64,000 nt of DNA from Clostridioides difficile (GTDB lineage Bacteria; Bacillota; Clostridia; Peptostreptococcales; Peptostreptococcaceae): contig NZ_JRHN01000050.1 of NCBI RefSeq assembly GCF_001299635.1, forward strand, positions 1-64,000, in the 5' to 3' direction. The notes below the pieces were generated by a model that did no database searches, was not told the origin of the DNA, and saw only the letters and a program-made list of their open reading frames with translations. The position numbers were made by a program, and so were the translations under genes. Shown here piece after piece: positions 58,196-63,104 of the stretch (positions are counted from its first letter, which is position 1; each line of letters begins with the position of its first letter).

Positions 58196-58337
58196 ATATC
58201 AATAATATCATAATAAAATTTTTTATAGATTTATGCTGAATATAATATGAAATGGAGTCAAAAAAGACAACTCAAACACATTGGCTATAGCACACTACTA
58301 TGAGATATTAAAAAATTTAGAGAGATAATAGTTATAT

Positions 58338-58378
58338 AAAAAATAGTGGCTATTCATTTTTAATAGCCACTATTTTTT
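58338..58378 (+). terminator. Bidirectional terminator after the DUF3786 gene
   Basis: AAAAAATAGTGGCTATT pairs perfectly with its complement (58362-58378). Serves the convergent DUF3786 and DUF1062 genes. Confidence 0.85.
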
Positions 58379-58422
58379 AAACTGATTTAGTTATAGAAAA
58401 TATATTAAGTTAGTTATTATAG

Positions 58423-58998
58423 CTAATTTGAAGACTTCTGCTTCTCCTCACCTATCTCTAACATAATTTCATAATTTAATTTGCTTTTCTTTAAATCAAC
58501 TCCAGATATACTTTTAATAATCCCACAGTCTAACATTTCATCAAATTTCTTTCTGGATAGACCTAGTTTTTCACGTAATAATGTTGATACCTTTAGTTGA
58601 GACGGATACTTACTTACAACTCTAATTTGTGTAAATTCATTAATATTAATCTCTTGACCTACTATTTTATATTCTGGAATACCAACTTCTGCTCCATTTC
58701 TATGTAAAAGTTCTACATTCATAGCATATTGCTTAACAAGATTATTATCATTTGTATGGAATTGTTCTAGTATTTCTGGATTCAAGCTTTTTGGATTAAC
58801 ACGAGAATATATAGTTGAGTTCCATGTTGAATCACAATTTGAACACTTATATATTAACCATATATCTAAATATTTATGTTGAGCATTAACTCTAAATAAA
58901 TCTGAACAAATATATTCAGTCTTTTTTCCACATTTTTTACAATACCTAATTACAGGTAGCTGGGAAGTATATTCTACTTCCCAAATTATTTCTTGCAT
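58423..58998 (-). CDS. DUF1062 protein: zinc ribbon plus S4-like segment
   Basis: 191 aa. A four-Cys zinc ribbon (CKKC near residue 20, CSNC near 50) with the DUF1062 hallmark LDIWLIYKCSNCDSTWN. The C-terminal part KVSTLLREKLGLSRKKFDEMLDCG resembles an S4 RNA-binding domain, which suggests binding to rRNA or tRNA. That is my reading, not an established function. The ribosome site AAAGG is held in a hairpin preceded by a 17-aa leader ORF, so translation is probably conditional. Confidence 0.75.
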   Translation of the reverse strand: MQEIIWEVEYTSQLPVIRYCKKCGKKTEYICSDLFRVNAQHKYLDIWLIYKCSNCDSTWNSTIYSRVNPKSLNPEILEQFHTNDNNLVKQYAMNVELLHRNGAEVGIPEYKIVGQEININEFTQIRVVSKYPSQLKVSTLLREKLGLSRKKFDEMLDCGIIKSISGVDLKKSKLNYEIMLEIGEEKQKSSN

Positions 58999-59010
58999 AA
59001 ACAAAATTTC

Positions 59011-59042
59011 CTTTCTATTAATATTACTAATCTAATAGAAAG
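59011..59042 (-). promoter_or_regulatory. Ribosome-site-sequestering hairpin of the DUF1062 gene
   Basis: RNA arm CUUUCUAUUA (59033-59042) pairs with UAAUAGAAAG (59011-59020), ten base pairs. The 3' arm contains most of the AAAGG ribosome site; the 5' arm is the end of the 17-aa leader ORF. This is the geometry of a translational attenuator. Confidence 0.6.
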
Positions 59043-59080
59043 TTATGAAAAGGTGGAATATAATCAAGTATTTTTCTCAA
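59027..59080 (-). CDS. 17-aa leader peptide upstream of the DUF1062 gene
   Basis: Short ORF MRKILDYIPPFHNFLLD, TTG start, with a perfect AGGAGG (59088-59093) seven bases before. It includes a Pro-Pro pair, a classic stall-prone motif. Its last four codons form one arm of the hairpin that hides the next gene's ribosome site. Too short for homology; support comes from the ribosome site and geometry. Confidence 0.5.
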   Translation of the reverse strand: MRKILDYIPPFHNFLLD

Positions 59081-59116
59081 AACAAGACCTCCTAATTTTA
59101 ATAAATTTTAATTTCG

Positions 59117-59183
59117 CTTATACAAAAGACTATTACTTCTTATTAAGTACTTTACAACTAACTTTGTTACCTAATTGTATAAG
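59117..59183 (-). promoter_or_regulatory. Long-range stem in the DUF1062 leader
   Basis: CTTATACAA (59117-59125) and TTGTATAAG (59175-59183) pair perfectly, nine base pairs, enclosing ~50 bases. It suggests a folded leader RNA. No terminator U-tract. Confidence 0.35.
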
Positions 59184-59256
59184 TTATTGAAATTAATTAA
59201 ATTATAACATCCTCCTAAAAGAAACTATACCTCAAACACTTTTACCAAAAGAAAAT

Positions 59257-59288
59257 GAGTCAGTATAATTATAAAATTACACTGACTC
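59257..59288 (-). terminator. Terminator of the CD3324-family gene
   Basis: GAGTCAGTATAAT pairs with ATTACACTGACTC (one G-U), U-rich tail on the minus strand. Confidence 0.8.
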
Positions 59289-59296
59289 ACTCTTAA

Positions 59297-59572
59297 CTAT
59301 CTTTTCTTTTTCTCTTGTAATACAATTCTTTGAATGCTTTTCAAAGATAGATAATATTTTTCTGATAAATATTTCAAATCATATCCAACTTGATAATCTT
59401 CGTAAATTTGCATATTTCTAATTGATAACTCCTCACGAGTAGATGTACTACTTCCCCATTCTTTTTTATTATTATATTTTCTAGGAATATATATATATTC
59501 TCCATCTACATATTCTTGTATCAATTTGAGTAATTCCTCTGGTAATATATGTATTGCTTTTTTATAGCTCAT
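59297..59572 (-). CDS. CD3324 family protein (Mor-like helix-turn-helix)
   Basis: 91 aa. N-terminal ILPEELLKLIQEYVDGEYIYIPRK followed by a helix-turn-helix, RNMQIYEDYQVGYDLKYLSEKYYLSLKSIQRI, like the Mor/C phage activators. A DNA-binding role is likely; the target is unknown. ATG after AGGAGAG. A promoter, a 9-aa leader ORF and a large hairpin lie upstream. Confidence 0.85.
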   Translation of the reverse strand: MSYKKAIHILPEELLKLIQEYVDGEYIYIPRKYNNKKEWGSSTSTREELSIRNMQIYEDYQVGYDLKYLSEKYYLSLKSIQRIVLQEKKKR

Positions 59573-59609
59573 TTTTGCTCTCCTATTAAATATTAATTTT
59601 TTATTAGGA

Positions 59610-59663
59610 ATAGCAAAGGGCTATTTATATATTAAATTTTATATTTGCAATAGCCCTTGCTAT
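59610..59663 (-). promoter_or_regulatory. Leader hairpin of the CD3324-family gene
   Basis: ATAGCAAAGGGCTATT (59610-59625) pairs with AATAGCCCTTGCTAT (59649-59663), 15 bp with one bulged A. The arm holds the stop codon of the 9-aa leader ORF. A second weak stem (59582-59590 with 59600-59608, one mismatch) covers part of the gene's ribosome site. Confidence 0.6.
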
Positions 59664-59689
59664 GCAAAAATAAAGATTAAATCAAACAT
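59660..59689 (-). CDS. 9-aa leader peptide upstream of the CD3324-family gene
   Basis: MFDLIFIFA, ATG start, preceded by the strong site AAGGAGGGGTGAG (59695-59707). The IFIF run recalls the stall motif of ErmC-type leader peptides. Its stop codon lies in the large hairpin. Chance cannot be excluded for so short an ORF, but promoter and ribosome site are near-ideal. Confidence 0.45.
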   Translation of the reverse strand: MFDLIFIFA

Positions 59690-59729
59690 AAATTCTCACC
59701 CCTCCTTACATGTCACAACGATACATACA

Positions 59730-59758
59730 AGTCTATCAATAGCATAAATGGTTGTCAA
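59730..59758 (-). promoter_or_regulatory. Promoter of the CD3324-family leader
   Basis: TTGACA (59753-59758), 17 nt, TAGACT (59730-59735) on the minus strand. The transcript would start near 59723, giving a ~150-base leader. Confidence 0.65.
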
Positions 59759-59849
59759 TCATTACAAATTCTTTATTTATATTTTATATTTTTTCTATCT
59801 TTACGACTCATTACACATATAATCAGAATCTTTAATCGATATTAAATCT

Positions 59850-60758: not shown

Positions 60759-63104
<2,346 letters not shown>

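Follow-up and report, generated by a model that had tools for sequence, protein, structure and literature searches.

Predicted leader-peptide attenuators that may sense stalled ribosomes precede a DUF1062 gene and its CD3324-family neighbour in Clostridioides difficile

We analyzed a stretch of 64,000 nucleotides from Clostridioides difficile (the window; positions 1 to 64,000 of the forward strand of contig NZ_JRHN01000050.1, NCBI RefSeq assembly GCF_001299635.1), which carries on its minus strand a gene for a protein of the DUF1062 family and, upstream of it, a gene for a putative regulator of the CD3324 family. The genome comprises 4.28 Mb in 66 contigs, and the window DUF1062 protein is 89-93% identical to those of three Clostridioides difficile strain loci. 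Along the minus strand lie, in this order, a promoter, a short open reading frame (ORF) encoding MFDLIFIFA (leader peptides are written without their stop), the CD3324 gene, a terminator-like hairpin, a promoter element, a -10 box, a 17-codon ORF, a hairpin and the DUF1062 gene (Table 1). The features before the DUF1062 gene strongly support the architecture of a translational attenuator, and a second attenuator, absent from a first-pass annotation of the same DNA, precedes the CD3324 gene.

The first-pass annotation had placed before the DUF1062 gene a 17-codon ORF with a perfect AGGAGG and a Pro-Pro motif, ending inside a ten-bp hairpin whose other arm holds the Shine-Dalgarno sequence (SD) of the gene, and all of these were found again in the sequence. 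The leader starts with TTG at 59080, not with ATG, and stops with TAG at 59029-59027; the stop codon lies in the loop of the hairpin, all ten pairs of which are standard, and the DUF1062 gene starts with ATG at 58998. The 263-nt region folds better than 200 of 200 dinucleotide shuffles (z -3.4), and a terminator scan saw no terminator in this leader. The span first proposed, 58996-59190, does contain the attenuator, but the whole is larger: judged from the -10 box, the DUF1062 transcript probably starts near 59195, and a further leader lies at 59689-59660. A long helix predicted between about 59130-59110 and 59010-58990 was dropped; by eye it is not kept in the genus. Another AGGAGG, at 59211-59216 between the promoter element and the -10 box, cannot act as a ribosome site if transcription starts near 59195. 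The stretch preceding the leader (59200-59100) is about 85 bases longer in Clostridioides than in other genera, and within it CTTATACAA (59183-59175) can pair with TTGTATAAG (59125-59117).

Table 1. Features of the CD3324-DUF1062 locus, in minus-strand order
Feature	Coordinates	Strand	Basis
Predicted sigma-70 promoter of the CD3324 gene (TTGACA, 17 nt, TAGACT, TG before)	59730..59758	-	10/12 matches; prediction
SD AAGGAGGGG of the first leader	59699..59707	-	sequence
Class-B attenuator RNA of the CD3324 gene	59570..59705	-	covariance model R1
First leader ORF, MFDLIFIFA and stop, 9 codons	59660..59689	-	sequence; same or near-same peptide in other Clostridioides loci
Segment 1, TGCATAGC	59666-59659	-	
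Segment 2, GCTATTGCA	59654-59646	-	
Segment 3, AATAGCCCTTTGC	59625-59613, with TTCC 59610-59607	-	
Segment 4 (SD side), AGGAGAGC	59584-59577	-	
CD3324-family Mor-like helix-turn-helix protein, putative activator, 91 aa	59297..59572	-	profile matches
Intrinsic-terminator-like hairpin after the CD3324 gene	59252..59293	-	scan: 2 in region, 0.2 expected
Conserved promoter-upstream element CTCATTTTCTTTTGGTAAAAGTGTTTGAGGT, possible CD3324 site	59229..59259	-	motif sampling in DUF1062 upstream regions
-10 box TATAAT with TG (TGTTATAAT), DUF1062 transcript	59201..59206	-	sequence, prediction; similar position in many loci
SD AGGAGG of the second leader	59088..59093	-	sequence
Second leader ORF (class A), TTG start, 17 codons, MRKILDYIPPFHNFLLD and stop	59027..59080	-	sequence
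Pro-Pro codons CCA CCT, predicted stall site	59051..59056	-	codon conservation and folding model
Lock hairpin, 5' arm CTTTCTATTA, within the leader	59033..59042	-	folding, covariation
Lock hairpin, 3' arm TAATAGAAAG	59011..59020	-	folding, covariation
DUF1062 SD AGAAAGG, overlapping the 3' arm	59010..59016	-	sequence
DUF1062 gene, 191 aa, zinc ribbon and S4-like C-terminal part	58423..58998	-	PF06353, model

DUF1062 loci were gathered from relatives in the order, the class and the phylum; in the genome scan, the best 80 of 320 confirmed relatives were taken as named loci. Weak Pfam rows (L012, L025, L036-L038 and L041-L043) were left out; seven of these are YlmH- or RluD-like by eye, and for L025 the printed frame is another gene. 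Two loci with cut or unclear starts (L030, L040) and two with no upstream DNA (L049, L113) were also left out. Removal of 31 near-duplicates from the resulting set of 111 loci gave 80 non-redundant DUF1062 upstream regions.

Pro-Pro leaders precede DUF1062 genes beyond chance. An automatic rule demanding a start codon, an SD with at least four matching bases and Pro-Pro within the first 14 residues found such a leader in 35 of the 80 regions, compared with a mean of 0.58 and a maximum of 3 in shuffled regions (50 rounds) and with 3 of 375 control ORFs of the window and the loci. Three more leaders were added by hand (L048, L054 and L092, the last without a recognizable SD), giving 38 leaders designated class A. 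Examples are MKRTYDYIPPFYTFLF.. in Sporomusa, MKKVCDNPPVTFPIKF in Clostridium, MKRICDNPPFLFPISF in Brevibacillus, MKKCCDNPPFSF in Lachnospiraceae and MEMVIPPYTGR in Enterococcus. Among the 35 automatic leaders, the first proline is residue 6-10, the Pro-Pro codons are CCA CCT (24), CCG CCT (5), CCA CCA (2), CCG CCG (2), CCC CCA (1) or CCC CCG (1), and Pro-Pro is followed by F (20), V (9), Y (4), I (1) or H (1). The two prolines persist although their codons vary synonymously, a pattern that indicates selection acting on the peptide and not on the RNA alone. Class-A leaders that end before the gene have 10-17 codons. The comparison across clostridia for which the first-pass annotation had called thus finds leader, Pro-Pro and hairpin kept in several genera.

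Conservation of the hairpin was evaluated on alignment A4, made from those 25 of the 38 class-A sequences whose geometry is alike. In it, the eight central pairs are formed in 92.7% of cells, against 49.7-68.2% when one side is slid, and 13 hairpin cells are changed on both sides, a number reached in 0 of 500 shuffles. Among the covarying pairs, columns 20-47 are C-G in 15 sequences and U-A in 7, and columns 23-44 are A-U in 7 and G-C in 4. RNAalifold found no consensus pair on alignment A6 (19 of 38 sequences), so that the covariance model R2 is one of sequence only. Its 10 strong matches (E <= 8.4e-14) all lie beside DUF1062 genes, which shows little, since the 19 sequences of R2 include five of the matched genomes (the window among them) and the others are close relatives; weaker matches (E >= 5.8e-5) were taken as noise and left uninspected.

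The cost of opening the SD was computed for the free RNA and with a ribosome on each leader codon, the ribosome masking the RNA as far as 16 nt past the start of its P-site codon. For class A (n = 38), the median cost falls from 6.8 kcal/mol in the free RNA to 4.9 when the P site holds the codon just before Pro-Pro, 2.8 when it holds the first proline and 1.5 when it holds the second. In the window, where the hexamer AGGAAA (59012-59007) was scored, the cost is 4.1 kcal/mol free and 0.1-0.3 with the ribosome at Pro9 or Pro10, and it drops from 4.0 to 0.1 on the single step from Ile8 to Pro9. We called the first codon at which the cost is halved the switch codon; it falls on the first or second proline in 24 of 34 usable leaders, against 5.5 expected for a random position of Pro-Pro, and in 23 of 32 (4.8 expected) with a footprint of +14. 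In these calculations, a ribosome at Pro-Pro would thus open the SD of the DUF1062 gene.

A different leader, class B, was found in 12 of the 80 DUF1062 regions. It has eight codons (MTTPIYFA, MTIDIFNA, MKTPSIIA, MCTPSTNA) and is followed by four segments, of which either 1 pairs with 2 and 3 with 4, or 2 pairs with 3, the SD lying in segment 4. A covariance model, R1, built from these 12 class-B DUF1062 leaders of other genera and holding no Clostridioides sequence, matches the window at 59705-59570, before the CD3324 gene (67.2 bits, E 1.9e-11). Over 198 genomes of the order, R1 has 33 places in 23 genomes: 23 before a CD3324-family gene (the window being one), 9 before a DUF1062 gene, of which 8 or their near copies are in the model, and 1 before neither. 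This last match (G075, E 0.0085) was put down to chance, since by eye it lies inside a transporter-like coding frame. In 77 chosen loci there are 53 class-B matches, 39 before CD3324, 13 before DUF1062 and 1 before neither; the loci having been chosen around DUF1062 genes or earlier class-B matches, the 52 of 53 arise partly by choice, and the 198-genome count is the fairer one.

The class-B leaders before CD3324 fall into several peptide groups (MLNPIV[IV][IV]A, MFDLIFIFA, MRKYVMFA and others), and in 18 distinct leaders picked for an LNP-like Pro4 the proline codon is CCT (10), CCA (6) or CCC (2). In the 53 matches, the mutually exclusive helices 1:2, 2:3 and 3:4 are paired in 97.4%, 95.7% and 91.0% of cells, and slid controls reach 22-28%, 35-52% and 44-55%, respectively; the alignment was fitted to a helix-2:3 model and holds 11 of its 12 sequences, so that the 2:3 percentage leans that way. 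One 1:2 pair is A-U in 38 and G-C in 9 sequences. Covariation counts on the 12-sequence class-B alignment are uninformative, because most of its pairs never vary. In the folding model (50 sequences), the SD is least closed while codons 3-4 are occupied and most closed once the ribosome has reached the leader end, a profile that fits a ribosome pause near codon 4. Two Clostridioides genomes (L141, L142) carry, at about 1517 on the reverse strand, a second CD3324-family gene with a class-B attenuator and the peptide MGIGTCA.

The window CD3324 protein matches NF040785 (E 9.6e-33, 112 bits, cut-off 65), the Mor family PF08765 (E 5.6e-8, 33.2 bits, cut-off 24.9) and a PHROG of late transcriptional activators (E 1e-7). 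Since it is Mor-like and its PHROG relatives are late transcriptional activators, CD3324 is rather likely to activate DUF1062. Of the 80 loci, 47 have this gene immediately before DUF1062 and 5 further ones have it at another place in the flank. The element upstream of the DUF1062 promoter, whose T(T/G)AGGT end is about 22 nt from the -10 box, follows this pairing: among the 52 loci that have CD3324 in their flank, 46 contain its pattern, against 7 of the other 28 (Fisher P 1.6e-8), and it occurs in 38 of 1401 control pieces, the pattern having been written after the motif was seen and related loci being counted apart. CD3324 may bind this element. The predicted promoter of the CD3324 gene itself comes from a scan whose sites are no commoner than in shuffles. 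In five loci (L016, L020, L039, L100, L109) the DUF1062 gene follows, by eye, an ORF resembling a GyrI-type effector-binding domain, in place of CD3324. A search of plasmid DNA with the locus gave one weak match only, to a CD3324 gene of Paraclostridium, a search of phage DNA gave none, and PADLOC found nothing. Elsewhere in the window, at 60759-63101, lies a gene with collagen-like Gly-X-X repeats, which we take to resemble the BclA exosporium glycoproteins of C. difficile.

Two more leader types were seen before DUF1062 genes. Class C, in 4 of 80 regions (Gottfriedia, Bacillus, Heyndrickxia), has the leader MIK or MIR, directly after whose stop CACTTTCAC pairs with GTGAAAGTG by the DUF1062 start; the median opening cost is 6.5 free and 3.0 with a ribosome on the leader. 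In four Bacillaceae loci (L114, L116, L118, L119) two short ORFs stand in succession upstream of DUF1062, one like MNSSLVNF and then MI[KR]. Class D is a TTG-started MEIFF in five enterobacterial loci (Citrobacter, Klebsiella, Salmonella and two E. coli), which in the folding model pairs along its whole length with the SD region; opening costs 4.6-6.9 free and 0.1-2.1 with a ribosome on any codon. MEIFF is likely to be the enterobacterial DUF1062 leader, and it is the least certain type because its own SD is poor in the three loci checked (AGGA in Citrobacter and Klebsiella, none in Salmonella). Of 5426 E. coli genomes, 17 have a DUF1062 gene similar to that of Salmonella. The Salmonella gene (STM4502) lies near yjhP (STM4500; set L127, L129, L130), and the two E. 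coli genes are adjoined by helix-turn-helix and YagK/YfjJ-domain genes, with the look of a mobile island. In the one Azospirillum locus (L126) no leader was found close to DUF1062, and in the one Streptomyces locus (L128) none was found.

The DUF1062 protein matches PF06353 with an E value of 6.4e-46 (156.9 bits, cut-off 23), and AlphaFold models it whole with a predicted local distance difference test score (pLDDT) of 94.8 and a predicted template modelling score of 0.82. The zinc ribbon of the first-pass annotation is supported by two CxxC pairs, C20, C23, C52 and C55, invariant in 59 proteins, and zinc binding is predicted; in the PDB sequence search, the zinc ribbon of a polymerase (1qyp) was matched weakly (E 0.0036). 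The S4-like segment of the same annotation is weakly supported by structural alignments of low Z and by a 45-aa segment of L012 (YlmH-like by eye) that matches both PF01479 and PF06353, but neither the window protein nor its C-terminal part matches the S4 sequence profile PF01479. This part is modelled as helix-helix-strand. The whole model aligns to RluD (2ist) over residues 120-187 with Z 4.3; for the C-terminal part alone (pLDDT 84) the top alignments are those to chain XP of 7aoi (Z 5.2) and to chain 7 of 7bl5, a pre-50S particle (Z 4.8), and its next seven rows (Z 2.0-2.3) are three small-subunit chains, presumably eS4, the YlmH-50S entry 8s1p and three unrelated proteins, a helicase domain, ProRS and MinE. 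All these Z scores are below 8 and thus below the level that proves a fold, and at E <= 0.001 Foldseek matched neither the whole protein (PDB, viral libraries) nor the C-terminal part (PDB). Among PHROGs, DUF1062 matches one family of unknown function (E 1.4e-5) and another at E 0.028. Zinc ribbon plus S4-like segment is a fair description of the model, not a proven one.

Leader-peptide attenuators have often marked ribosome-protecting genes, and two plans are familiar, the four segments of erm and the single hairpin of cat. The likeness to erm and cat leaders that the first-pass annotation saw before DUF1062 holds for cat, the lock at 59042-59011 being a single hairpin, whereas the erm-like four-segment form sits before CD3324 instead. 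Class B thus shares its plan with ermB and ermC and class A with cat; a methylase or an acetyltransferase is controlled there, a DUF and a helix-turn-helix regulator here, and the peptides are unrelated by eye. Orthosomycins are reportedly sensed via proline codons (Mangano 2022), which is a lead only.

As the available parts of PMC10201436 describe, the upstream ORFs (uORFs) of cplR (MRI, C. difficile), vmlR, vmlR2 and lsaA likewise combine a short leader ORF and an anti-SD hairpin before a ribosome-protection gene, and the MI[KR] leaders of Bacillaceae DUF1062 genes are about the size of the cplR MRI and vmlR MIN uORFs. The cplR and vmlR leaders are induced by ribosome drugs (PMC10201436; for vmlR also PMC12121999, both in excerpts). 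In contrast to class A, cplR also has a terminator, acting by transcription attenuation, and ribosomes on its uORF are presumed to stall shortly after they initiate (PMC10201436); class A has a Pro-Pro leader, its window member shows no terminator and its product is not ABC-F. In the excerpts of PMC12121999, the toiL uORF of E. coli topAI-yjhQ base-pairs with the ribosome site of the gene that follows, a ribosome held anywhere on it frees that site, and this one leader responds to many drug classes. Enterobacterial MEIFF would follow the same logic in the folding model; toiL differs from the DUF1062 leaders in peptide and gene. The strongest analogy for a drug signal is given by the class-C leaders, of cplR and vmlR size, and by toiL with its many drug classes.

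In open-access full text, DUF1062 turned up in two papers, each with a single table row: STM4502 is lower in a Salmonella yqiC mutant (PMC9714038), and BT1426 stands in a Bacteroides iron-response list (PMC10434189). The excerpts retrieved from open-access full text (supplements excluded) on uORFs and leader peptides cover cplR, erm, msrD and toiL and contain nothing on DUF1062 or CD3324, and CD3324 and neighbouring tags returned from open-access full text unrelated nematode work only. The kind of control is known; in the open-access literature we met no account of the leader families reported here, of DUF1062 or CD3324 being controlled by them, or of the pair.

We propose, with a probability of roughly 0.68, that leader-peptide attenuators sensing stalled ribosomes control an activator-effector pair, a reading supported by the comparison of leader, Pro-Pro, hairpin, second attenuator and gene pairing among relatives. 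The hairpin that buries the ribosome site would hold DUF1062 translation off. Normal passage of a ribosome would open this lock briefly only, and a ribosome dwelling with Pro-Pro in its P and A sites would cover the 5' arm and free the SD, so that a longer pause at Pro-Pro, whatever its cause, would switch DUF1062 on. Stalling at Pro-Pro is quite probable. As a separate leader attenuator with four segments precedes CD3324, the locus resembles a pair of stall sensors acting one after the other: ribosome trouble would lead to CD3324, CD3324 to DUF1062 transcription, and only continued stalling to DUF1062 translation. The signal would most likely be a ribosome-targeting inhibitor and the target of DUF1062 the ribosome or another structured RNA. 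We lean slightly towards a stall lengthened by such an inhibitor, rather than by a shortage of proline or of elongation factor P (EF-P), and induction by drugs or ribosome stress is suggested by the likeness to cplR, vmlR and toiL; the chances that DUF1062 acts on ribosomes seem to us even.

Several observations weigh against this proposal. No leader was recognized in 26 of the 80 DUF1062 regions, 16 of them with CD3324 directly upstream, so that attenuator control is not universal, and the loci are related, so that counts overstate independent events. The number of class-A hairpin pairs with a change on both sides (3) was equalled in 194 of 500 shuffles and that of further pair types (10) in 73 of 500. 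The agreement of Pro-Pro and switch codon depends on the footprint chosen, a footprint of +18 giving only 13 of 35 (5.7 expected), and opening costs were computed for real leaders only. In six class-A loci (L066, L087, L089, L112, L115, L117) the SD is cheap to open (0.2-2.0 kcal/mol free) and no lock is seen. The class-B dip at codons 3-4 is small and its polarity is not settled, and the window CD3324 leader has leucine, not proline, at codon 4.

Constitutive translational coupling, in which the leader is always translated and Pro-Pro just slows the ribosome sufficiently to keep the site open in the absence of any signal, appears unlikely. It would suit the 8 of 38 class-A loci (L047, L072, L091, L094, L096, L099 and L102 by coordinates, L048 from its sequence) whose leader overruns the DUF1062 start, as in plain coupling, and Pro-Pro slows ribosomes without any drug (PMC8129111, in excerpt). 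Coupling, however, needs no conserved Pro-Pro at the switch codon, no varied leader types and no attenuator on the neighbouring regulator.

That the leaders sense how much proline is supplied, how far Pro-tRNA is charged or how active EF-P is, and not a drug, is rather improbable. All 38 class-A leaders have Pro-Pro (by class definition), which lies at the modelled switch codon in 24 of the 34 usable ones, many class-B leaders have proline at codon 4, and the rescue of proline stalls by EF-P is established (excerpts of PMC4176338 and PMC11611912). Against such a sensor, class-A leaders hold two proline codons only, and the class-C, class-D and window CD3324 leaders hold none.

That the hairpin is an RNA thermometer, or a switch bound by a protein or metabolite, with the ORF incidental, is very improbable: the lock is A+U-rich and weak (4.1 kcal/mol in the window), but ORF, SD and Pro-Pro are kept with synonymous changes while the hairpin arms vary, no Rfam family reached the gathering threshold in 12 loci, and the window stretch 58300-59800 gave a single chance-level match, to a microRNA, far below the gathering score.

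A nascent chain leaves the ribosome exit tunnel at about 30-40 residues, and a chain stalled at a first proline in position 6-10 would be too short to do so. This makes it hardly credible that the leaders are intrinsic arrest peptides monitoring secretion or folding, like ApdA or SecM, even though the RAPP peptides stall in this geometry, with Pro-Pro in the P and A sites: according to the excerpts of PMC10951233, ApdA, ApdP and ApcA stall with proline in the P site, ApdA and ApdP also with proline in the A site. DUF1062 leaders are much shorter, have no R-A-P-P (Y-I precedes PP in the window) and no secretion gene downstream, DUF1062 itself not being one.

Beyond the window, control by stall-sensing leaders may extend to a widespread, unrecognized ribosome-stress module. 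In this tentative extension, to which we give somewhat less than even odds, CD3324 and DUF1062 would each stand behind a stall sensor, in many cases one whose switch codon is, or is close to, a proline codon, and the two would form a two-step check that allows DUF1062 to be made during continued ribosome blockage only. DUF1062 would be a new ribosome-protection or rescue factor, placed in bacteria ranging from Clostridia to Enterobacteria under several leader types. A regulator and its presumed target that both lie behind stall-sensing leaders, acting in series, would make an unusual circuit, although the literature was not searched for the arrangement itself. The conserved Pro-Pro leader offers a probe for inhibitors sensed through proline context. 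With three leader types, and probably a fourth, on the same family and one on the neighbouring regulator, DUF1062 gains a first testable function.

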